Shown here one piece after another: positions 2,369-42,523 of a DNA stretch of 64,000 nucleotides. The stretch lies in the NCBI GenBank assembly GCA_003214355.1, contig QCLS01000003.1, positions 62,001-126,000 of the forward strand. Direction: 5' to 3'. A model generated the notes under the pieces. The model ran no database searches, was not told the origin of the DNA, and was given only the letters and a program-made list of their open reading frames with translations. A program made the position numbers and the translations under genes. The stretch's first letter is position 1. Each line of letters opens with the position of its first letter. Source of the DNA: Prochlorococcus sp. AG-418-C09. GTDB taxonomy: Bacteria > Cyanobacteriota > Cyanobacteriia > PCC-6307 > Cyanobiaceae.

Positions 2369-3256
2369 TTAGTTTAATTGTAACGTATTAAAGTCCAGTG
2401 GTGTGAACTCAGTGGGCACTTCAGCAACTGAACACCTCTCCTCTGCTATTCTAACATACTCTGGTTCTTTTTCAATACCTATGAATGAACGTTCAGTAGG
2501 TAGAGCAGCAACACCAGTAGTTCCTGATCCGCAGAATGGATCCAGTATAGTTCCCTTCTCAGGGCAGTATATCTTGACTAACCACTCCATCAATGCTACT
2601 GGTTTAACAGTAGGATGGTTGTTGTTGTCTCCCTTCTCCTTACGTGTAGCACGTGGAGCATAGAAATACTTCTGGTGTGGTGCCTGTACCTCACCAACTA
2701 TATTACTTGGGTATCTGCCTTTTGGATTAGCATCCTTAGTACCAAACTCCTTCTGTGTGCCTGTTGTCTTACCATCCTTACCGAATGTCCTACGCTTGAC
2801 ACCTCCTGCTACCCACCCTGTTGGTGGTTTACCATCCCAAGGTACACGTGCGTCCTCTATATTGATCTTACCTACACCATACTTGGCATAGTTCTTCTCA
2901 ATACTACCTTCACATGGTTTCTGTGCTACCACAATAGGTTCATGTGCGGGTTTGAGTCTGTTAGTCTTAGGCATCTTGGTAGTTACCATCCACATGATCT
3001 GATCTTTGATCTCAAATCCTGCGTCCTCTACGTTCACTGCCATCCTATGATATAGTTGTGGACTACAAAATGATAGCAGGAAAGCACCAGGTTTCAGTGT
3101 CCTGTATACTTCTTGCCATAGTTCTTTTGTAGGTACACTGTAGTCCCAGTGTTCCATACCCATACCATATGGAGGGTCAGTGATACAACAATCGAATGAC
3201 ATGTCATCCCAACTGTCCAAAGCTTCTAGAGCATCACTTGAAGAAATTAAATACAT
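2369..3256 (-). CDS. DNA methyltransferase (DPPY type, N6_N4_Mtase family)
   Basis: A 295-residue class-beta amino-methyltransferase. The catalytic motif CITDPPYGMG lies near the N-terminus (about residue 26) and the SAM-binding LDPFCGSGTTG near the C-terminus (about residue 243). DPPY favours N6-adenine over N4-cytosine methylation. The start chosen is MYLISSSDALEALDSW, whose ATG lies 23 bp inside the end of the upstream PD-(D/E)XK nuclease gene, so translation is probably coupled. A longer in-frame start 20 codons upstream looks like readthrough of the nuclease region. The overlap with a nuclease suggests a restriction-modification pair; alternatively it is a solo protective methylase. Target sequence cannot be read. 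Confidence 0.85.
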   Translation of the reverse strand: MYLISSSDALEALDSWDDMSFDCCITDPPYGMGMEHWDYSVPTKELWQEVYRTLKPGAFLLSFCSPQLYHRMAVNVEDAGFEIKDQIMWMVTTKMPKTNRLKPAHEPIVVAQKPCEGSIEKNYAKYGVGKINIEDARVPWDGKPPTGWVAGGVKRRTFGKDGKTTGTQKEFGTKDANPKGRYPSNIVGEVQAPHQKYFYAPRATRKEKGDNNNHPTVKPVALMEWLVKIYCPEKGTILDPFCGSGTTGVAALPTERSFIGIEKEPEYVRIAEERCSVAEVPTEFTPLDFNTLQLN

Positions 3257-3800
3257 TCTGTTCGCATGTAGGTCTGTCCTTATGTGTAAAGTAATCAGTA
3301 TACTCTGCTGTACCACTCTGTGTGTACATCTCTCTCAGGTAGAAATCAAATCCTCTCTCGTCTTGCCACTCTGGTAGTGCCTGATAACGAACGAGTACAT
3401 CTTTCATCTCTAATAACATTCTATCATATAATTCTCTTTTGTCCAAGGTGAGTACGTCATCACCCCAAAACAATGTAGTCTCGTTGTACTTCTTACTTGT
3501 GAATACATACAGACCTCCTGCGTGTGGTCTACCACTGTTATACATTGGTTTAGCATTCTGACTACTCTTACACTCTAAGTTGATAGTACCCCATCGTGTA
3601 GGTATTTCATAGTCAGGGAAGTTTTGAGTACCATTAGGTTGATAGGTATAGACTATACCATATTCATCTAGCATCTCACCCACTCTCTTTTCATGGTCAT
3701 CACCATTTGCCCAAGGCAGATTCTTGAGTTTAGTCAAGAGATCTGCCATCCTATTAGCATCAAGTAATGGAGATACGAAACCTATATCATTTAGTTTCAT
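3234..3800 (-). CDS. PD-(D/E)XK restriction endonuclease-like protein
   Basis: A 188-residue protein with a type II restriction-like catalytic core. An N-terminal helix (DHEKRVGEMLDEYGIVY) carries a Glu, then FPDYEI supplies the Asp, and INLECKSS gives the E-x-K pair about 12 residues later. After the core comes MYNSGRPHAGGLYVFTSKKY, an arrangement resembling type II restriction enzymes that bind DNA through a following strand-loop. Its 3' end overlaps the DPPY methyltransferase start by 23 bp. The pairing suggests a phage-borne restriction-modification system or a nuclease for degrading host or rival DNA. Assignment is by motif only. Confidence 0.65.
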   Translation of the reverse strand: MKLNDIGFVSPLLDANRMADLLTKLKNLPWANGDDHEKRVGEMLDEYGIVYTYQPNGTQNFPDYEIPTRWGTINLECKSSQNAKPMYNSGRPHAGGLYVFTSKKYNETTLFWGDDVLTLDKRELYDRMLLEMKDVLVRYQALPEWQDERGFDFYLREMYTQSGTAEYTDYFTHKDRPTCEQNVFNFFK

Positions 3801-23021: not shown

Positions 23022-24301
23022 CCTAAGTTATCCCTGTACAGAGTTACTCTAGTAGACATCATGTCTCTCTCAGATAAGAATTGTCTGTATATCTTGCCTA
23101 CTATGTATTTACCACTAATGACAGGTTCCTTTTTACCAGTTCTTGCATTGTACTTATTGACTTGAACAACCTGTCCGATCTTTAGATCTTGCATGCCCTC
23201 ATATTCAAAGGTAGCAGACTGATTAAAAAATAGTTGATTCCTTATCATAGACTGTGAAAGTTGTTTTGTCAAGTCTTGTGTGTATGTACCCTCTGTGTAC
23301 ATAGCAGTATCTAAAACCTTAGACATAATTCTAGTAGGTCTACCACCAGTCTCCTCACTACCAAATCTTTCGTAGAAGCTTGGCAATTCTCTTGGGTTTA
23401 ACTTCTTCATTGTTGGATAGAAGTCCTTGATAAAGAAGGGTATCTCTTCATACTTAAAGTCCTTCATGTTTAAAGTAAAGGTTGTACTAGCATAACTACC
23501 TAGATTGATACCACGAAACAAATCACTGGTCTCACTGACACTAAATCCAAAGATGTGTATATCCTTCATCTCTTCATCATCCCCATCCTCATTATCTGGA
23601 GCATAGTTGACATTTATATCTCTTGATGGTGCTTGCTGAGTTAAAGCATCCATAGATCTGAAGAAATAACCGTCAACATTTTCATAGAACAGATATCCCG
23701 CACTCTTTTTACCACTACCACCTTCCTCTATTGATCTCCAAGCTAACCAACTAATAATTGTATAAGGATCCCAGTATGGACTCACGAATGACAATTTAGT
23801 TGTGGATTTATCCACTACAAGTGGTCTGCTAGATGCTAGATCTTTCTTTAACAGTTCATCTACCATCTCATTTGTAAACTGTCCTCCACCTTTACCAAAT
23901 CTCCTTGATATCTTTGTAGCACTATTTCTTACCGCATCTATACTGATACAGTATAAGGTTGCTTGTGACTGTTTACCATCTTTTATCATACGATCTTTAA
24001 TATCATATACAACTAATGATTGTTTTATCACATTACCTTCCATACCCTCACTAAGAGAGTCATCTGTCCATATCAGTTCGACTGGATCCATACCTACCAG
24101 AGAATCCAACACTCCACTTCCACTATCATTAATCTTTAACATGATAAGGAGGTTTGACTTGGTGATGTCCTCAATATAATGTAACTCTATCAAGTGATTA
24201 GATGATAGAGAAACAACAAGGAATCCCTGATCACCAGACTCCTCACTCTTGGTAGAGATACCTATATCAAGTTGAATTAATCGGAAATTAGTTTGCTTCA
24301 T
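23018..24301 (-). CDS. 27: baseplate hub protein gp27-like
   Basis: A 427-residue protein immediately before gp5, as in T4, where gp27 forms the cup that holds the gp5 trimer. Length is close to T4 gp27 (391). Features include VDGYFFRSMDALTQQAP and SATFEYEGMQDLKIGQVVQV, near the end, which is the tube-like domain typical of gp27/VgrG/gp44 hubs. Stop overlaps the gp5 start by 4 bp. Identified from gene order and fold-like pattern more than from clear identity. Confidence 0.7.
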   Translation of the reverse strand: MKQTNFRLIQLDIGISTKSEESGDQGFLVVSLSSNHLIELHYIEDITKSNLLIMLKINDSGSGVLDSLVGMDPVELIWTDDSLSEGMEGNVIKQSLVVYDIKDRMIKDGKQSQATLYCISIDAVRNSATKISRRFGKGGGQFTNEMVDELLKKDLASSRPLVVDKSTTKLSFVSPYWDPYTIISWLAWRSIEEGGSGKKSAGYLFYENVDGYFFRSMDALTQQAPSRDINVNYAPDNEDGDDEEMKDIHIFGFSVSETSDLFRGINLGSYASTTFTLNMKDFKYEEIPFFIKDFYPTMKKLNPRELPSFYERFGSEETGGRPTRIMSKVLDTAMYTEGTYTQDLTKQLSQSMIRNQLFFNQSATFEYEGMQDLKIGQVVQVNKYNARTGKKEPVISGKYIVGKIYRQFLSERDMMSTRVTLYRDNLG

Positions 24302-25842
24302 ACTACATCATGTGGGGTTTGACCACCGTCTACTGCTGTTATGTTGGCAAGAAGATACTTACTGACTTCTAGTTCAGTGGGTGCGACTGCTGCCTTCATG
24401 TCCATAGTTATACCATTACCCATAGCCATTTTTGATGTCAGTGCCTTTACCTTAGATGTAAACTCATCTTCTTGGTTCTGATCCATAGTATCAGGGACTA
24501 CGAGAGTATTCAGCTCTGCCATTGATACTTCATTTAACTCAATAACTTGATTGGTCAAACTGTTGATGTCTTGATCATTTGTCTGAGCACCAATATCAGC
24601 CTTAAATACTCCACCTAAAATCTGGTTTAGTATACTAGCACCCTTATTGATTATTTTACCAGCTGTTGTACTCTTGAATATGCTCTTAGCAGACTCAGCT
24701 ATATTTGTGATAGCAGTTTTAGTCTGATCATAATGAGTATTTGCTGAAGCATATATCTTATCTGGAGGTGAACCATCTAGAGAAGGTCCTCCAGTTCCAT
24801 TTAACATCTCAATCAATCTATCATTCTGCATTCTACGGTTTTGTATTCCCGTAACAGCAGCACCCATAGGAGTGTCTCCAGATACTTTATGATCCTTGTC
24901 CTTAGCAAGTCCCATTAAGTTTGTGATAGTAGAGAAGAATCCACCACCAGCTATGAGTTGTTCTTTCTTACTCTCAACGTTCTTGGTAGACTCACTTGAC
25001 TCACTACCCATGTCAGGTTTCGGTAAGTCGAATGCGTCAGTAATATTGCTTATCTGTGACTTTGCTGCCATAAACTCTGGTGAGTCAGGCATATTCAAAG
25101 CACTTAATAATCCACCTAGACCAGCTGCCACTGCTTTCAATGGTAATCCCATAGCAGCTGCTAGAGCAGTCTTATACTTATCAAGTCCAAGATCTCCCGC
25201 AAATTCAGAAGCGACGTTAGAATCACCATCAAGTCCTAAATCCTCAAGTGGCGTGATACCACCTGATTTTTTCTGCTTTTGAGGTTGCAGAGAATTGAAC
25301 ATAGGACTAGCAGTAGCACCTGGAACATATCCACCTTTTGCTAGTTTAGTATCAGGTGTCTGACTAGGAGTGGTAGTTAGATCCTTACCAGTATTGCTAG
25401 GAGGTTGTATTTTAGTTTCACCATCCTTACCTGGCGGACCAGGTTGACCATCGACTCCATCTGTACCATCTTCTCCATCTCTACCCTCTACAATTTCTTC
25501 TTCATCCTCTTCATCCATGCCATCATCAAGATCAATCGGTGCATCGAGATCCATTATTGGCAATGATGCAGGATTGATGAAGTTAGCAAACTTCCTCATC
25601 GTGGTCTGAGCTTTGAGTATCTCATAACCATTAGCTAAATCTTGTTTTATTCCACCTTTTCTAGAATCATCTCTATTATCTGCCTCTATCATTGACTGAA
25701 TATTTTCTGCCAATAGGAAGTCCTTATACTTGTCCTCCTTCATCATAGTGTGAAGCATCGCATTGCGATCTTCAAAGAGATTGGTCAGATCACTCAGTAT
25801 TACATGTACATCTTCTAAAGTGGGAAACTCTTTACTATCCAT
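24298..25842 (-). CDS. tail/hub protein with collagen-like segment, 514 aa
   Basis: Begins MDSKEFPTLEDVHVILSDLT. Around residues 119-142 is a short collagen-like stretch of Gly-X-Y triplets (GRDGEDGTDGVDGQPGPPGK), preceded by an acidic run. The rest is Ala/Lys/Gln rich and helical, like tape-measure or hub-filling proteins. Sits between the M23 peptidase and gp27 with 1-4 bp overlaps. In T4 this position holds gp28/gp29. It may be the second half of a split tape measure; not proven. Confidence 0.55.
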   Translation of the reverse strand: MDSKEFPTLEDVHVILSDLTNLFEDRNAMLHTMMKEDKYKDFLLAENIQSMIEADNRDDSRKGGIKQDLANGYEILKAQTTMRKFANFINPASLPIMDLDAPIDLDDGMDEEDEEEIVEGRDGEDGTDGVDGQPGPPGKDGETKIQPPSNTGKDLTTTPSQTPDTKLAKGGYVPGATASPMFNSLQPQKQKKSGGITPLEDLGLDGDSNVASEFAGDLGLDKYKTALAAAMGLPLKAVAAGLGGLLSALNMPDSPEFMAAKSQISNITDAFDLPKPDMGSESSESTKNVESKKEQLIAGGGFFSTITNLMGLAKDKDHKVSGDTPMGAAVTGIQNRRMQNDRLIEMLNGTGGPSLDGSPPDKIYASANTHYDQTKTAITNIAESAKSIFKSTTAGKIINKGASILNQILGGVFKADIGAQTNDQDINSLTNQVIELNEVSMAELNTLVVPDTMDQNQEDEFTSKVKALTSKMAMGNGITMDMKAAVAPTELEVSKYLLANITAVDGGQTPHDVV

Positions 25843-26750
25843 TATAACGCACCATATTTACCTGAGAATGGACTAACACCCAATACCACCTTTCTCTCTA
25901 CCTTCTTCTCTATGACTCTATTAACAGGGAAGGGGACGGGATTATAATATGGGAGTGGAACGAACATTAATTGTGGTTTTGTGACAGCAACAGTTGAGTT
26001 TTCATTAGGTATCAGTCCTGATGCCTTAGCAGGAGAGAAAGAAGCACCTCCCATTGCTCCGTTACTACTTGGCCACTTAACTGTATTAGTTAATGGATAA
26101 CCGTAACTGGGACCTCCTGTACCCTCCTCTGATGGAGGTTCAAAGTTACCTAACTTTATTAGAGGTGCGAATGGAAGTGGATCTCCTGCTCCACCATATC
26201 TAGTTGAGTCTTTCTTATCATCGTATTCAAAGTGCAAATGAGGACCTGTAGAATTACCTGCACCAGGATCTCCCTTAGCACCACCAGTCTTTGCGAGAAC
26301 CTCTCCCGCTAAAAATTCCCCAGATTTTTTTACGAAGGAACTTAAATGAGCAATACGCATTTGTATTCCAGTATTAGGTAGCCATACGTCCATCATGTTA
26401 CCATAACCACCATATCTTCCTGCTGCCAATATCTCACCACCTTCAGAAAAACCTACGGGTGTACCTGTGGGAGTAGCAACGTCCACACCACCATGAGGTC
26501 TTGTTCTATTCTCTGTTGAACCATAGTAATCAGTGATGTTAAAATTAGATACCATTGTTTTATCACCCTGTATGGTTGTGGTAGCAGTATCAGCAGTGTT
26601 AACAGCAGAGCTAGCAATTTGTGTAACCATGTCTGGTTGAGCCATCACTGGTCTCTTCAATATATTCATAATCAATCCAGCTATAGGATTAGCAGCTGTA
26701 AATGCTCTCCTTGCTGTGCCAATCAGTTTATTTGTAATCTTTTTTACCAT
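25842..26750 (-). CDS. M23-family peptidase, virion-associated
   Basis: A 302-residue protein with the lysostaphin-type M23 zinc site: HGGVDVATPTGTPVGF (His and Asp ligands, about residues 85-100) and THIS-type second site GPHLHFEYDD (H-x-H, about residue 169), with IAHLSSF between. The N-terminus is basic and hydrophobic (MVKKITNKLIGTARRAF), possibly for packing in the tail. M23 enzymes cleave peptidoglycan peptide bridges. Encoded within the hub operon, overlapping the tape-measure-like gene by 23 bp, so it likely replaces the lysozyme activity that T4 builds into gp5. Confidence 0.85.
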   Translation of the reverse strand: MVKKITNKLIGTARRAFTAANPIAGLIMNILKRPVMAQPDMVTQIASSAVNTADTATTTIQGDKTMVSNFNITDYYGSTENRTRPHGGVDVATPTGTPVGFSEGGEILAAGRYGGYGNMMDVWLPNTGIQMRIAHLSSFVKKSGEFLAGEVLAKTGGAKGDPGAGNSTGPHLHFEYDDKKDSTRYGGAGDPLPFAPLIKLGNFEPPSEEGTGGPSYGYPLTNTVKWPSSNGAMGGASFSPAKASGLIPNENSTVAVTKPQLMFVPLPYYNPVPFPVNRVIEKKVERKVVLGVSPFSGKYGAL

Positions 26751-28086
26751 TGAAAATCTTTGGAATCACACCGCCAGGAAATAGTCCACCTAACTTATTT
26801 GCTTCTGATAATACTTTTTGTGTGTCTGAACTAGGAGTTGGTAGTGTAGTAAGGAATCCTTTAGTGATGCCAAGCATCATAGCACCTACTTCCTTGAATA
26901 GACTAGACATTACCTTACCCATCTTAGAGTGAGGTATAACCAGTTCTCCTTCACCACCTTCACCGATTAACGCTTTAGTAGGACGTGTGACTTGTCCACC
27001 TTCTGAGAAAGGGAGTACTCCCTTCTGACTCTTGCCACTATAAGTGCCAGTATTTTCATCAAATGCTGCGTATGGATCTTGTCCACTAAGAACTTGAACA
27101 AGTTCAAATATTGTCAATCCCCATCCCGCAATCTGTGAGACAACTTGAGCGATAGCTGGAACAGCAGCACCTACACCAGTGACAGATGCAGGAGCAGTTC
27201 CTAGAGTTGTTGCGTCAGCACCCATGTCTAGAGCAGCAAGAGCAGTGCCGAGCCATCCTTTCCAACCACCTATTTTCTGATAACGAACCATATCATTAGC
27301 TGACAGTGCCATACTTGCTACTGGAATTGCTCGTCCAGAACCTTTCGCCATAACTTTGGAAAGGTTCTTGAACATCTTAGAGTTCTTTAGAGTTTTAACT
27401 ACTGACTTCGCATTATCAACCATCATTGGTGCTTTCTTCCACAAGTCTTTTATCCTCTTGATGCCACCGTCCATCATGGCACCGCTGACATTTTTGACTC
27501 TAGTAGCACCTCCAACTATTTTCTTCTTCAAGAAACTTCCTGCACTGGTTAATTTCTTACCCGCATAGTTGATGCCCTGCATCCCTTTTTTTGCTATCCA
27601 CTTTCCACCTTGTTTTACTTTATTTCCAGCTGCTATACCTTTATCTTTTATCTTATTTCCAATTCTTGCTATATTTCTAGGATTAAGAAACTTAAGCGGA
27701 CCTCTATATACTGCTTTCTTTCCTAAAGCAGGTGCACCACCAAGTCTTAATGCTCTCGCTCTTATACCACGAGCAAATCTACCTATCTTACTGCCCTTAC
27801 CGAAACTTTTAAACCTAAGTCTCTTCTTTTTCTTAAGGAATCTTCTATTTCTGGGTATACCAAAACCACCACCATCACCACCGTCTGCGTCTCTATCCCT
27901 CTTTCTTCCACCAACTACAACTCTTTGCTGTAGCAAGTTCGTCATTATGAAGAACTTCTTTCTATTCCTGAGATAGTCGATGTACTCCATCTCAGTGTCG
28001 AGCATATTCTTGGCTGTACGAGTCATCTTACCTGATACAGGTAAGAGTTTAACTCCTAACATCTTAGAGATAGCACGACGATTCAT
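26728..28086 (-). CDS. tape-measure-like tail protein, 452 aa
   Basis: Very basic N-terminal half (FLKKKKRLRFKSFGKGSKIG and many Lys/Arg) followed by a hydrophobic stretch (LDMGADATTLGTAPASVTGV) and a C-terminal motif ALIGEGGEGELVIPHSKMG, close to the A-x-[VI]-G-E-x-G-x-E-[LA]-V-I-P signature seen in many tape-measure proteins. It directly follows the gp26/gp51 tail-chaperone pair, the classical place for a tape measure. ATG overlaps the gp51-like stop (ATGA). At 452 residues it is short for a contractile tail, so the job may be shared with the 514-residue protein. Confidence 0.65.
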   Translation of the reverse strand: MNRRAISKMLGVKLLPVSGKMTRTAKNMLDTEMEYIDYLRNRKKFFIMTNLLQQRVVVGGRKRDRDADGGDGGGFGIPRNRRFLKKKKRLRFKSFGKGSKIGRFARGIRARALRLGGAPALGKKAVYRGPLKFLNPRNIARIGNKIKDKGIAAGNKVKQGGKWIAKKGMQGINYAGKKLTSAGSFLKKKIVGGATRVKNVSGAMMDGGIKRIKDLWKKAPMMVDNAKSVVKTLKNSKMFKNLSKVMAKGSGRAIPVASMALSANDMVRYQKIGGWKGWLGTALAALDMGADATTLGTAPASVTGVGAAVPAIAQVVSQIAGWGLTIFELVQVLSGQDPYAAFDENTGTYSGKSQKGVLPFSEGGQVTRPTKALIGEGGEGELVIPHSKMGKVMSSLFKEVGAMMLGITKGFLTTLPTPSSDTQKVLSEANKLGGLFPGGVIPKIFNGKKDYK

Positions 28087-28289
28087 CTTCTCTTACGTGA
28101 TTGACGTTCCTTTTCTATACGTTCCCTTTCATCGTTTAACCACTTAGAAAGCATATTGACGTAAATGTCACGCTCCCAAGGGATCATATTCTCTATGTCA
28201 CTCAAGGTATATTTATGGTGTTGAACCAAGGCAAAATTCGTCTGATAGAACCTTGCTAACCCTTCTTGGAATAGGGCTATCCGAAAAAA
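28083..28289 (-). CDS. 51: gp51-like frame, probably expressed by -1 frameshift from gp26
   Basis: An open frame of 68 residues (FFRIALFQEGLARFYQTNF, ALVQHHKYTLSDIENM, IPWERDIYVNMLSKWLNDER) in the -1 frame relative to the end of gp26. There is no ATG, GTG or TTG at its beginning, and the upstream end is closed by a TAG about 22 codons into overlap. The sequence is clearly protein-like and ends in ATGA overlap with the tape-measure-like gene. In T4, gene 51 encodes a hub-assembly catalyst. Coordinates begin at the slippery site and the start is therefore not a normal initiation codon; TTG at the ALVQ region is an alternative. Confidence 0.7.
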   Translation of the reverse strand, partial: FFRIALFQEGLARFYQTNFALVQHHKYTLSDIENMIPWERDIYVNMLSKWLNDERERIEKERQSRKRR

Positions 28290-28303
28290 TTGACTAATCC
28301 TTC
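28258..28303 (-). promoter_or_regulatory. candidate -1 ribosomal frameshift signal
   Basis: Minus-strand order: internal Shine-Dalgarno-like GAAGGA (28298-28303), 8 bases, slippery heptamer T_TTT_TTC in the gp26 frame (28283-28289), then after GGAT a 6-bp stem AGCCCT / AGGGTT (28273-28278 with 28258-28263). The gp26 stop TAG lies 3 bases past the slippery site. After slipping, reading passes into the gp51-like frame. This is the standard three-part -1 frameshift layout known from dnaX and from tail-chaperone gene pairs such as lambda G/GT. Confidence 0.7.
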
Positions 28304-28975
28304 GATGACACTAGAAGTTTTGACACCTGTGTTAGGATTAGTAACTGTAAGCTCATGGCGAAGAGTAGGCATAGTATCAAAGAACTTTTGGATACTTTCA
28401 AACTGATCAGTAGTAAGTTGCTCAAGCCAGTCTTGAGCCTCTTTAGGTGTGAACGATCCACAATCTTCTTCTCCTTGGTAAACTCTGTCGATGCATGTAG
28501 ATACCAATTCATATGGATCTACCTCTTCCTCAGTGAAATTAATCTTTGTAAAGTATTCTAGGTTAGGATACTTCATCACCACTGTCACACTCTCGTTAAC
28601 TTTGATTGTATTGTTATGTCCTTCTGGGAAGTTAACCTTAATCTGATCAACGGGAATAGTCACGGGGACTTTCGTCTTTGGATCATCTTCACATGGTACT
28701 TCTATTTCAATGGTTTCTTGAATAGACCTACCACGTAGTTGTAAAAAGATATACTCAACGTCAAAGATAGACAAGTCATCCATCTTAAATCTAGTATTGA
28801 TACAACTCTTAAATATAGTCTTTATTGCTTCTAGTATCTGTGAGGTATTGTTTTCCTCTAATGCTAGGATCAGAACCTTCTGTTCTTTAACTAAAAAGGG
28901 GCGATATTTTAGTTTCTTTTTGGTTGATGGTACTACCAACTCATACGTTGGCGTAACAAGTTCAGGTAATGGCAT
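28277..28975 (-). CDS. 26: baseplate hub assembly protein gp26 / tail chaperone
   Basis: A 232-residue protein beginning MPLPELVTPTYELVVPSTKK, as cyanophage gp26 does (T4 gp26 starts in a similar beta hairpin). It contains FLVKEQKVLILALEENN, FDVEYIFLQLRGRSIQETIE and ends SVIEGLVNFFG with the slippery T-run in the last codons. In T4, gp26 is needed for hub assembly. Position before gp51 and the tape measure matches the two-gene tail-chaperone arrangement of many tailed phages. Confidence 0.85.
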   Translation of the reverse strand: MPLPELVTPTYELVVPSTKKKLKYRPFLVKEQKVLILALEENNTSQILEAIKTIFKSCINTRFKMDDLSIFDVEYIFLQLRGRSIQETIEIEVPCEDDPKTKVPVTIPVDQIKVNFPEGHNNTIKVNESVTVVMKYPNLEYFTKINFTEEEVDPYELVSTCIDRVYQGEEDCGSFTPKEAQDWLEQLTTDQFESIQKFFDTMPTLRHELTVTNPNTGVKTSSVIEGLVNFFG

Positions 28976-29002: not shown

Positions 29003-29695
29003 TCAAGCTTCTACAGAGATACTTTTTGAGCCAGCATCTAGTAATTCAGAGTACTCATAGTACATACCTACGCTTAGTTTAACAACTCCTGATCCACCAG
29101 AACTATATGGTATAGATGAAACCATATATGGATAAGAGTTAATTAGTTTTACTGTCCACACATGGTACTGCTCGTTTGAATTATTTGTTGTTACTGCCCC
29201 TCCTGCTTGTGGATCATACTTTTCAAACTTCTTGATTATAGTATCACATACGTATGACTTATAGTAGTGCTGTACATATGCTCTGTCATATACTCTACCT
29301 TGAGCAACAAAGTCTATGTTAGCAGGATTACCTGTTATAAAATCTTGCCATCCTCTGAAAAATTTATATGCTTCTGACTGAATATCAAGTATAAACGACA
29401 TATCCATCTCATTGAACACCTTTGCCATAGCTGGTTTCATGTTGATACCTTTATGTATTCCCTTGACATCCTGAGACACCATTGATACACCTGGTATCTG
29501 GATCTCGTTTGCCATATCAACCATCAACTTATTAAAGGAGTTGTTTTTGACTCCATATGATTCTAACCACTTAGCTAATTCGCCATTGACTCCCGCAGGA
29601 TCAATACCGAACTGCAGATCATATTGGTTAGTAGAGGACGGACCTCCACTGAACTTTAGATCAGTTAAAAATTTTGTAACGCTCTTCAGTGCCAT
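29003..29695 (-). CDS. 54: tail-tube initiator gp54-like / tube-fold protein
   Basis: A 230-residue protein starting MALKSVTKFLTDLKFSGG. Features shared with phage tail-tube fold proteins: MSFILDIQSEAYKFFRGW, FVAQGRVYDRAYVQHYYKSY and a final PYMVSSIPYSSGGSGVVKLS then VGMYYEYSEL. T4 gp54 and gp19 share this fold. Since gp48 (the other initiator) is divergently encoded next to it, gp54 is the best assignment; tail tube gp19 is the alternative. Start chosen because it lies 27 bp after a late promoter; a longer frame reads into gp4. Confidence 0.7.
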   Translation of the reverse strand: MALKSVTKFLTDLKFSGGPSSTNQYDLQFGIDPAGVNGELAKWLESYGVKNNSFNKLMVDMANEIQIPGVSMVSQDVKGIHKGINMKPAMAKVFNEMDMSFILDIQSEAYKFFRGWQDFITGNPANIDFVAQGRVYDRAYVQHYYKSYVCDTIIKKFEKYDPQAGGAVTTNNSNEQYHVWTVKLINSYPYMVSSIPYSSGGSGVVKLSVGMYYEYSELLDAGSKSISVEA

Positions 29696-29729
29696 AAATA
29701 CACTACATGGGGTGGTATTTTTATTTATG
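29693..29729. promoter_or_regulatory. back-to-back late promoters overlapping both start codons
   Basis: Plus-strand CATAAATA (29693-29700) lies 27 bp upstream of the gp4 ATG; minus-strand CATAAATA (complement at 29722-29729) lies 27 bp upstream of the gp54-like ATG. The first three bases of each box are the complement of the other gene's ATG, so the 37-bp region is symmetrical and holds both promoters, both leaders and both starts. Confidence 0.7.
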
Positions 29730-30200
29730 TCTCTAAAACAAGGAAAGTTCAAACCCAAGAACTATAAGAAATATAAAGGGGATCCAACTAACGTATTTTA
29801 CAGGTCTGGTTGGGAACTTAAGTTCATGAACTGGTGTGATAGTGACAGATCAGTGCTTAGTTGGTCATCGGAAGAGATAATAATTCCATACAAATGTCCT
29901 ACCGATAACAGAGTACACAGGTATTTCCCAGACTTCTGGGTTAAGATACAGGAGTCAACAGGAGTTAAACAGTATCTTGTAGAGGTCAAACCTCTAAAAC
30001 AGACACAAGTACCCAAACCTCAGAAACGTCAAACCCAAAGGTATCTAACGGAGGTTATGACCTATGCTAAAAACGATGCAAAGTGGAGGGCAGCTCAGGA
30101 ATTCTGCGACGACAGAGGATGGAAGTTCAGACTCATCACAGAACGAGAACTCAGAATTAACTACACTGCTCCTAAACCTAAAAGGAAGCAAGGTAAGTAG
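29727..30200 (+). CDS. 4: head completion protein gp4
   Basis: A 157-residue protein beginning MSLKQGKFKPKNYKKYKGDP. It contains TNVFYRSGWELKFMNWCD, VHRYFPDFWVKIQ and KQYLVEVKPLKQT, typical of T4 gp4/50. The pattern E..PDF..EVKP is that of a PD-(D/E)XK nuclease-like fold, which gp4 resembles. It acts on filled heads before tail joining. First gene of a short plus-strand late unit with gp48 and gp53. Confidence 0.88.
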   Translation: MSLKQGKFKPKNYKKYKGDPTNVFYRSGWELKFMNWCDSDRSVLSWSSEEIIIPYKCPTDNRVHRYFPDFWVKIQESTGVKQYLVEVKPLKQTQVPKPQKRQTQRYLTEVMTYAKNDAKWRAAQEFCDDRGWKFRLITERELRINYTAPKPKRKQGK

Positions 30201-41428: not shown

Positions 41429-42523
41429 TTATCCGATTGATGGAGCAGTTAATGCTACTTCTGTTGTCTCAGCAGATGCTAAGTCAAGTGGGAAGTTGTG
41501 AGCATTACGCTCGTGCATTACTTCCATACCTAGGTTTGCTCTGTTTAGAACGTCTCCCCATGTAGGGATAACTTTACCATTAACATCAACAACTGATTGG
41601 TTGAAGTTAAATCCGTTCAAGTTGAATGCCATTGTACAGATACCCATAGAGGTTAACCATACACATACAACTGGGAACACTGCTAGGAAGAAGTGAAGAC
41701 TTCTTGAGTTGTTGAAAGAAGCATACTGGAAGATAAGACGACCAAAGTAACCGTGTGCTGCTACTATGTTGTATGTTTCTTCTTCTTGTCCAAACTTGTA
41801 ACCATAGTTCTGTGACTCTTCTTCAGTTGTCTCTTTGATTAGAGATGAAGTAACTAAAGAACCGTGCATTGCTGAGAATAAAGATCCTCCGAACATACCT
41901 GCGACACCTGCCATATGGAAGGGGTGCATAAGAATGTTATGCTCTGCTTGGAACACGAACATGAAGTTGAACGTACCTGAGATACCTAAAGGCATACCAT
42001 CTGAGAAAGATCCCTGACCAAATGGGTACACTAGGAATACAGCAAAAGCTGCTGATACAGGTGCTGAATATGCTACACATATCCAAGGTCTCATACCTAA
42101 TCTGTATGATAATTCCCATTGTCTTCCCATGTATGCTGAGATACCAATTAGGAAGTGGAAGATTACCAACTGGTAAGGACCACCATTATATAACCATTCG
42201 TCTACAGTTGCTGCTTCCCAGATAGGGTAGAAGTGTAGACCGATAGCGTTTGAAGATGGAACTACAGCACCAGAGATGATGTTGTTACCATATAAGAAAG
42301 AACCCGCTACTGGTTCTCTGATTCCGTCGATATCGACTGGAGGTGCTGCTATGAAAGCAACGATGAAACATGCTGCTGCTGCGAGTAAGCATGGAATCAT
42401 GATTACACCAAACCAACCAACATAAAGTCTGTTGTCTGTGGATGTAACCCACTCGCAGAATTCAGGCCACCCTGCTAGGAGACCACCGCTTCTACGTGCG
42501 GTTCTGTTTGAAAGAGTTGTCAT
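41429..42523 (-). CDS. psbA: photosystem II D1 protein
   Basis: Complete 364-residue D1. Conserved pieces: [120 protein letters not shown] and [20 protein letters not shown]. The residue equivalent to 130 is Gln (low-light D1:1 type). Substitutions such as ATVDEW and [20 protein letters not shown] point to Prochlorococcus-like D1. No intron. It replaces host D1, which turns over quickly under light. Preceded by its own late promoter and a roughly 190-nt leader. Confidence 0.98.

Follow-up and report, generated by a model that had tools for sequence, protein, structure and literature searches.

A probable -1 frameshift joins gp26 to the gp51 reading frame in T4-like cyanophages and their relatives

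The window is a stretch of 64,000 nt from contig QCLS01000003.1 of Prochlorococcus sp. AG-418-C09. It encodes a D1 protein at positions 41429–42523, recognised from its translation, and we take the window to be part of a psbA-bearing T4-like cyanophage contig. No tRNA genes were found in the window. The cyanophage contig lies within a 32-contig, 1.6-Mb assembly that is of bacterial size and 95% complete, as if an infected single cell had been sequenced or the bin had been formed together with its phage.

The locus is on the minus strand and has the gene order tail tube, chaperone (two overlapping frames) and tape measure, where the tape measure call is weak (Table 1). The gp26-like protein matches Pfam family PF12322 (T4_baseplate, the gp26/gp51 family) with an E value of 3.2e-63 (213.8 bits, cut-off 24.5) and the PHROG profile phrog_150, baseplate hub, with an E value of 4.1e-73. 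This is the one PF12322 match in the whole 1.6-Mb assembly, whose completeness for the phage is not guaranteed. The T4-type arrangement, with separate short and long genes, is not seen here; there is a single gp26 copy. The 452-aa ORF downstream matches phrog_10093, tail length tape measure, with an E value of 2.4e-8 over residues 318–395 only, and has no Pfam match. Synteny and weak profile matches tentatively suggest that it is a tape measure protein. Three consecutive ORFs follow the chaperone at positions 24298–28086, of 452 aa, 302 aa (with an M23 peptidase domain) and 514 aa (with a collagen-like stretch), where phage S-PM2 is annotated with one 1167-aa ORF directly after gp51. The first two of the three have matches to tape measure or endolysin profiles. 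The tape measure of the window may be split into several proteins.

Table 1. Features of the gp26/gp51 locus in the window
Feature	Position	Strand	Basis
Tail-tube-like gene, directly 5' of gp26	29003..29758	-	PF23849 Phage_TTP_2, E 4.9e-12; phrog_45 tail tube, E 1.4e-23
gp26-like gene, putative short tail assembly chaperone form, 232 aa	28277..28975	-	ORF; PF12322; phrog_150
Open -1 frame through two shifted codons, without start codon	28284..28310	-	bounded by a TAG stop of this frame at 28313-28311
SD-like GAAGGA, 8 nt upstream of heptamer	28298..28303	-	not supported as a selected signal
Slippery heptamer T_TTT_TTC, gp26 frame	28283..28289	-	sequence; T_TTT_TTN at the same place in relatives
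gp51-domain extension in the -1 frame: 66 codons past the predicted shift, then TGA	28083..28283	-	phrog_634; C-terminal end of phrog_150
gp26 stop TAG, met by non-shifting ribosomes	28277..28279	-	sequence
Possible downstream stem, 5' arm UAGCCCU	28273..28279	-	RNAfold
Possible downstream stem, 3' arm AGGGUUA	28257..28263	-	RNAfold
ATGA, gp51-frame stop overlapping start of tape-measure-like gene	28083..28086	-	sequence
Tape-measure-like gene, 452 aa, directly 3'	26728..28086	-	phrog_11440, E 1.8e-13 (unknown function); phrog_10093

The last codons of gp26 are GTC AAT TTT TTC GGA TAG. A slippery heptamer of the X_XXY_YYZ type is thus present, in frame, near the end of this first ORF and is separated from the stop by one codon (GGA). 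The -1 frame is open from position 28310 to 28086 and reads FFRIALFQEGLARFYQTNFALVQHHKYTLSDIENMIPWERDIYVNMLSKWLNDERERIEKERQSRKRR from the heptamer. There is no ATG, GTG or TTG in this frame before the heptamer. If codons are numbered from 0 at the first base of the heptamer, TTG first appears at codon 20 and ATG at codon 34. The original prediction of an in-frame T_TTT_TTC with the gp26 stop just beyond it, and of a -1 frame that has no start codon and overlaps the tape-measure-like gene by ATGA, is confirmed at these positions. The gp51 frame matches phrog_634, baseplate hub assembly catalyst, with an E value of 7.5e-27. It has a further match (E 2.8e-10) to the C-terminal end of phrog_150, which implies that the gp26 and gp51 parts are fused in some phages. 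A Pfam match of the gp51 frame to Stealth_CR2 is sub-threshold and was taken as chance; NCBIfam gave nothing above the cut-off. A shift at the heptamer would yield a fusion product of 231 + 66 = 297 aa.

A search of a phage collection gave 831 records that match gp26 and 723 that match the gp51 frame. DNA was read for part of these records and for IMG/VR relatives; the locus sets include the best 80 of at least 598 confirmed and the best 80 of 276, and near relatives are over-represented. In the first set of 94 sequences, 86 have both a gp26 match and a gp51-frame match among the matches listed. The heptamer T_TTT_TTN is in frame in all 86, with C as the last base in 57, A in 27, and T and G in one each. 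The gp51 frame is the -1 frame in 86/86, and this frame is free of start codons before the slip site in all of them. Sequences outside the 86 are two of the two-gene T4 type (L001 and L093), two whose contig ends before gp51 (L004 and L037), one without the T-run (L089) and a group of three that BLAST missed and that were added later (L085, L086 and L090: phages phiAS5 and Aeh1 and Stenotrophomonas phage Yut2). These three, read by eye, fit in both heptamer and -1 frame. The second set has 105 loci from five named cyanophages (S-WAM1, S-8S29, ACG-2014f, S-PM2 and P-SSM2) and three further scans. Among the matches listed, gp51 is in the -1 frame in 105/105 and T_TTT_TTC is present in 87/105; the 18 loci without the T-run are all from the scan with phage Vi01 (Ackermannviridae). 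Pooling gives an in-frame T_TTT_TTN in 176 of the 195 loci that have a gp51-like -1 frame among the matches listed, and the other 19 are all Salmonella phage Vi01 (L089) and its relatives. In all 176 heptamer loci the -1 frame lacks a start codon before the slip. These loci include repeat fetches of one contig (for example, L012/L194 and L022/L178) and reduce to 146 distinct 160-nt sequences.

The heptamer may be compared with the remainder of the same genes. The 86 open gp26 frames have 20,251 other codon positions, and it is in frame at 8 of them. Adjacent Phe codons could happen to make it, and the Phe codons of these genes are rich in TTT (638 TTT, 338 TTC), so that the motif could be viewed as a product of chance, with the frame change being a sequencing error or the mark of a decayed gene. 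However, 176 loci from many lineages share the heptamer together with the frame-specific conservation described below. The comparison already contradicts a reading by chance or error, and its probability is negligible.

A comparison of 143 distinct sequences shows that conservation switches from the gp26 frame to the -1 frame exactly at the heptamer. Upstream of the heptamer the -1 frame is poorly conserved and has stops at codons -9 (102 sequences), -5 (42) and -1 (38). From the heptamer on it is conserved and stop-free across the 22 codons examined, and the gp26 frame displays the reverse. A stop of the -1 frame directly adjoins the heptamer in 39 of the 146 distinct loci. Selection was analyzed as pN/pS in two groups from 81 distinct loci, the clade of the window (41 loci) and a second clade (30 loci). 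Codons 4–9 follow the gp26 stop, and all 71 loci tested lack a start codon there. In the clade of the window, these codons have a pN/pS of 0.12 when read in the -1 frame; the gp26 frame gives 1.08 and the +1 frame 7.75. The corresponding values for the second clade are 0.29, 1.62 and 5.11. A wider stretch, which took in the first start codon of some loci, gives 0.26 (-1), 0.95 (gp26 frame) and 3.3 (+1) for the 41 loci, and 0.37, 1.51 and 2.7 for the 30 loci.

These values bear on a second explanation, that gp51 is a separate protein made by reinitiation or from a weak internal start (ATG, GTG or TTG), the overlap and the T-run being incidental. Public records do give gp51 its own start, for example in P-HM2, S-PM2 and P-SSM2, and a start codon is present at codons 3–6 after the slip in 50 of the 146 distinct loci; in the other 96 the first ATG, GTG or TTG is at codon 10 or later. 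A TAATG overlap in Schizotequatrovirus would also permit reinitiation. Against this stand the lack of an upstream -1 start in 176/176 loci, together with the late TTG and ATG of the window, the presence of the heptamer in 86/86 loci compared with its rarity elsewhere in the same genes, and the T4 protein in which the domain is made as the C-terminus of a gp26-like protein. In the 71 loci, purifying selection acts on the -1 frame of the start-free codons 4–9, and an independent gp51 start was rejected on this frame-specific conservation; we consider it very unlikely. Selection on these codons, in combination with the late first start codon of many loci, indicates that translation very probably enters the gp51 frame from gp26.

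Stimulated bacterial -1 frameshift signals of the dnaX type have an SD-like stimulator upstream and a stem-loop downstream of the slip site. The original prediction included both elements. The GAAGGA sequence is present, but its SD-like strength is not unusual when compared with synonymous recodings of the upstream codons (p 0.71 in the window; p ≤ 0.05 in 7/81 loci). Within the respective gp26 it scores in the highest 5% of windows in 15/81 loci because of conserved Glu-Gly codons, and recodings with the same amino acids are equally strong. The element was thus rejected as a special signal.

The stem predicted 4 nt downstream of the heptamer is present as described, with 6 bp between AGCCCU (28278–28273) and AGGGUU (28263–28258); RNAfold lengthens it to 7 bp with a delta G of -7.5 kcal/mol. 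In the window it is not above chance, with a z of -0.10 against dinucleotide shuffles and a p of 0.13 against synonymous recodings. In the relatives, comparison with synonymous recodings of the -1 frame gives p ≤ 0.05 in 81 of the 146 distinct loci and p ≤ 0.01 in 58. The stem occurs in two registers. One is GCCCTC/GAGGGC around a 6-nt loop; the other, found in part of the TTTTTTA clade, has 7 bp and a 4-nt loop. The stem is missing in some relatives. There is therefore no single structure across the alignment. RNAalifold found no common pairs in 81 aligned distinct loci (five duplicate rows are left out), and a universal stem-loop was rejected. When the two registers were written by hand, 71% and 65% of cells were paired, with mixed covariation. 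The 6-bp register was equalled in 0/500 shuffles on cells paired but in 125/500 on the covariation score; the 7-bp register was equalled in 0/500 on both. The structure alignments have 50 and 20 rows, chosen by us. Conservation of both heptamer and stem in related cyanophages had been proposed as a check. The heptamer is kept, whereas the stem is lineage-specific.

Homopolymer T-runs are a usual substrate for slippage by RNA polymerase, and longer runs would favour it. The polymerase could slip on the six T residues and add a U, such that part of the mRNA would read straight into gp51; the data here do not separate an event on the mRNA from one on the ribosome. However, 145 of the 146 distinct loci have a run of exactly six T residues and the remaining one has seven, and a stem selected beyond codon choice in more than half of these loci suits ribosomal slippage. 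Polymerase slippage is considered highly improbable.

Loss of the T-run in homologues had been named as an outcome that would speak against the frameshift. Such loss does occur, but in distant lineages: Vi01 and its relatives, and the T4-type gp26 of two-gene phages. Vi01 (L089, positions 2478–2600) and 18 Ackermannviridae relatives (L197–L214) have a gp51-like domain in the -1 frame in 19/19, and T_TTT_TTN is absent in 19/19. In its place this group conserves GA[A/G]_ATT_TTC_AT[T/C]_TAA. A TAATG stop-start overlap is present in the -1 frame in L211–L213, and the other Vi01 relatives have TAATT. The Vi01 group would use either a non-canonical slip site or reinitiation. In Schizotequatrovirus and relatives, two loci (L087, positions 2585–2640, and L092) have both T_TTT_TTC and a TAATG overlap in the -1 frame, and synthesis of both a long form and a free gp51 is possible. 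For two other loci of these phages (L115 and L116), scoring covered only the heptamer, the frame and upstream starts.

Phage T4 has a different arrangement. Genes 26 and 51 are divergent neighbours and therefore cannot be joined by frameshifting. A divergent gp26/gp51 pair is also found in phages KP182, G5211, 44RR2.8t and AB1I1T. Both T4 proteins match PF12322, as does gp26 of the window. In T4 gp51 (249 aa) the match is over residues 1–201 (E 3.9e-52) and is followed by a phrog_634 match at the C-terminal end, the same C-terminal domain as in the window; T4 gp26 (208 aa) has no phrog_634 match. By domain content, T4 gp51 is a long form made in frame, and T4 gp26 is its short-form paralogue. 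T4 gp26 ends with GLKEFFELL and the frameshifting gp26 proteins end with GL..FF, but the T4 codons are GAG TTC TTT GAG and there is no heptamer. The window, unlike T4, has a single gene with a single slip site and lacks a second copy.

A tree of 30 proteins places the 17 frameshifting rows on one side of a branch with support of 96/96, with Vi01 inside. The two-gene gp51 rows are on another branch (100/99) that includes a row from Enterobacter phage EC-F2, and the two-gene gp26 rows, which have long branches, are unsettled. The tree is rooted at the midpoint only and therefore does not give the direction of change. We infer that the frameshift is older than the two-gene state, because it is found in phiAS5, Aeh1 and Vibrio phages, which are recorded in the Straboviridae with T4. 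It is perhaps an even call whether, in the whole T4 supergroup, a chaperone made from one gene by frameshifting came first and was replaced once on the T4 branch by duplication and fusion, with Ackermannviridae as a third state. In EC-F2, a Pseudotevenvirus, a long-form gene is followed by an apparent short-form gene on the same strand, in tandem (L095, positions 2501–3794); this is possibly an earlier step of the duplication. One T4-type gp51 gene (L111, positions 2983–3758) is broken into two overlapping frames, unlike its relatives, and was excluded for this split; it is likely a sequencing error or a decayed copy.

Frameshifts in lambda-type tail assembly chaperones were reportedly treated by Xu, Hendrix and Duda in 2004. 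The position of a short/long pair between a tail tube gene at its 5' side and a tape-measure-like gene at its 3' side fits a lambda tail assembly chaperone, and gp26/gp51 fits a short/long chaperone pair of lambda type. The likeness to lambda gpG/gpGT consists of a predicted -1 slip near the 3' end of the short chaperone gene, the neighbouring tube and tape measure genes, and a short form that would be made beside a long form extended at its C-terminus. The window differs from the lambda-type systems in being T4-like, in its T_TTT_TTN site and in its PF12322 family. In lambda, according to the part of a 2016 review consulted, the short form attaches to the tape measure protein and the extended part of the long form brings in tube subunits (PMC5009743). 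The T4 literature, in the excerpts consulted, describes gp26 and gp51 as hub assembly chaperones, with gp51 essential and of unknown function (PMC3004832).

Structural comparison of a predicted gp26 model (pLDDT 85.7) is consistent with a moderate match to the HK97 tail assembly chaperone (PDB 2ob9). The first ~85 residues align with a Z score of 7.1, tied with 3fgx and with the next row at 3.7, where the tool sets its caution level at 8. The alignment covers only 84 of 232 residues, at 12% identity. A Foldseek search of the model against the PDB gave nothing at E ≤ 0.001, with 2ob9 at rank 16 (E 3.3), and the HK97 chaperone reached the top only on re-ranking. No chaperone is among the rows listed for the T4-type long-form model. 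Sequence searches of solved structures with gp26 (PF12322 family) and mixed profiles found no tail assembly chaperone, only weak unrelated matches.

The frame-specific selection, the conserved heptamer and the long form in T4 gp51 point to the same mechanism as the core of the original prediction, and in all likelihood a -1 programmed frameshift joins gp26 to gp51, giving a 297-aa long form beside the 232-aa short chaperone form. Most ribosomes would stop at the TAG and produce the short form. A minority, with tRNA-Phe in both the P and A sites on T_TTT_TTC, would move back by one base and read on in the -1 frame to produce the long form with the gp51 domain. By analogy to lambda gpG/gpGT, the short form may coat the tape measure protein that is encoded just downstream, and the long form may recruit tail tube subunits.

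Cyanophage gp51 has been annotated in another way. Sullivan et al. 2010 note that it has ~20% of the usual length and is without the first ~200 residues (PMC3037559). The word "frameshift" is absent from that text, and the portion consulted has no explanation of the short gp51. Six cyanophage records were examined (P-HM2, S-WAM1, S-8S29, ACG-2014f, S-PM2 and P-SSM2). None has a joined gp26-gp51 gene; five have gp51 as its own gene, and S-WAM1 has no gp51 entry. The slip site is present in every close relative examined, and cyanophage gp51 is thus probably the tail end of a longer form and not a truncated separate gene.

In its consulted part, the 2016 review describes G-T frameshifting as a widely conserved feature, "except T4" (PMC5009743). 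The PRFect paper, also seen in part, states that some T4-like phages use one short and one fused long chaperone gene in place of a frameshift and credits Vladimirov, Gautam and Davidson 2022 (PMC10885494). Likewise, a passage in the paper on Pseudomonas phage Adele cites Vladimirov et al. 2022 for the presence of poly-T slip sites in the TAC-N genes of T4-like phages (PMC12846349). As far as these passages show, the general idea is thus already known, and the cyanophage case may well be included in Vladimirov et al. 2022. In the parts of the open literature consulted, no description of a gp26-gp51 frameshift in cyanophages was recognised. The chaperones of Vandenendeviridae and Andersonviridae, as described in the excerpts of the Adele paper, are similar in being from myoviruses, in the poly-T -1 slip and in a -1 frame that stays open across a stretch annotated as a gene of its own; they differ in phage family and in having GTTTTT where the window and its relatives have TTTTTTC/A (PMC12846349).

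If frameshifting from one gene came first, the phages that keep it would be cyanophages, pelagiphage Mosig, Sinorhizobium, Rhizobium and Vibrio phages, Aeh1-like phages, one Stenotrophomonas phage and one Pseudomonas phage. Ackermannviridae would have kept the -1 extension and lost the canonical slip site, with R_ATT_TTC or stop-start reinitiation instead. A free gp51 protein, i.e., a truncated hub assembly catalyst, would not exist in cyanophages. With the frameshift as the very likely mechanism, T4, the exception, looks derived; culturable phages such as S-PM2, P-HM2 and Aeh1 allow a test of this. The residues that cyanophage gp51 lacks are then those of gp26, which corrects the usual annotation of gp51 as a separate, shortened gene and groups the tail chaperone of these marine phages with those of lambda type.
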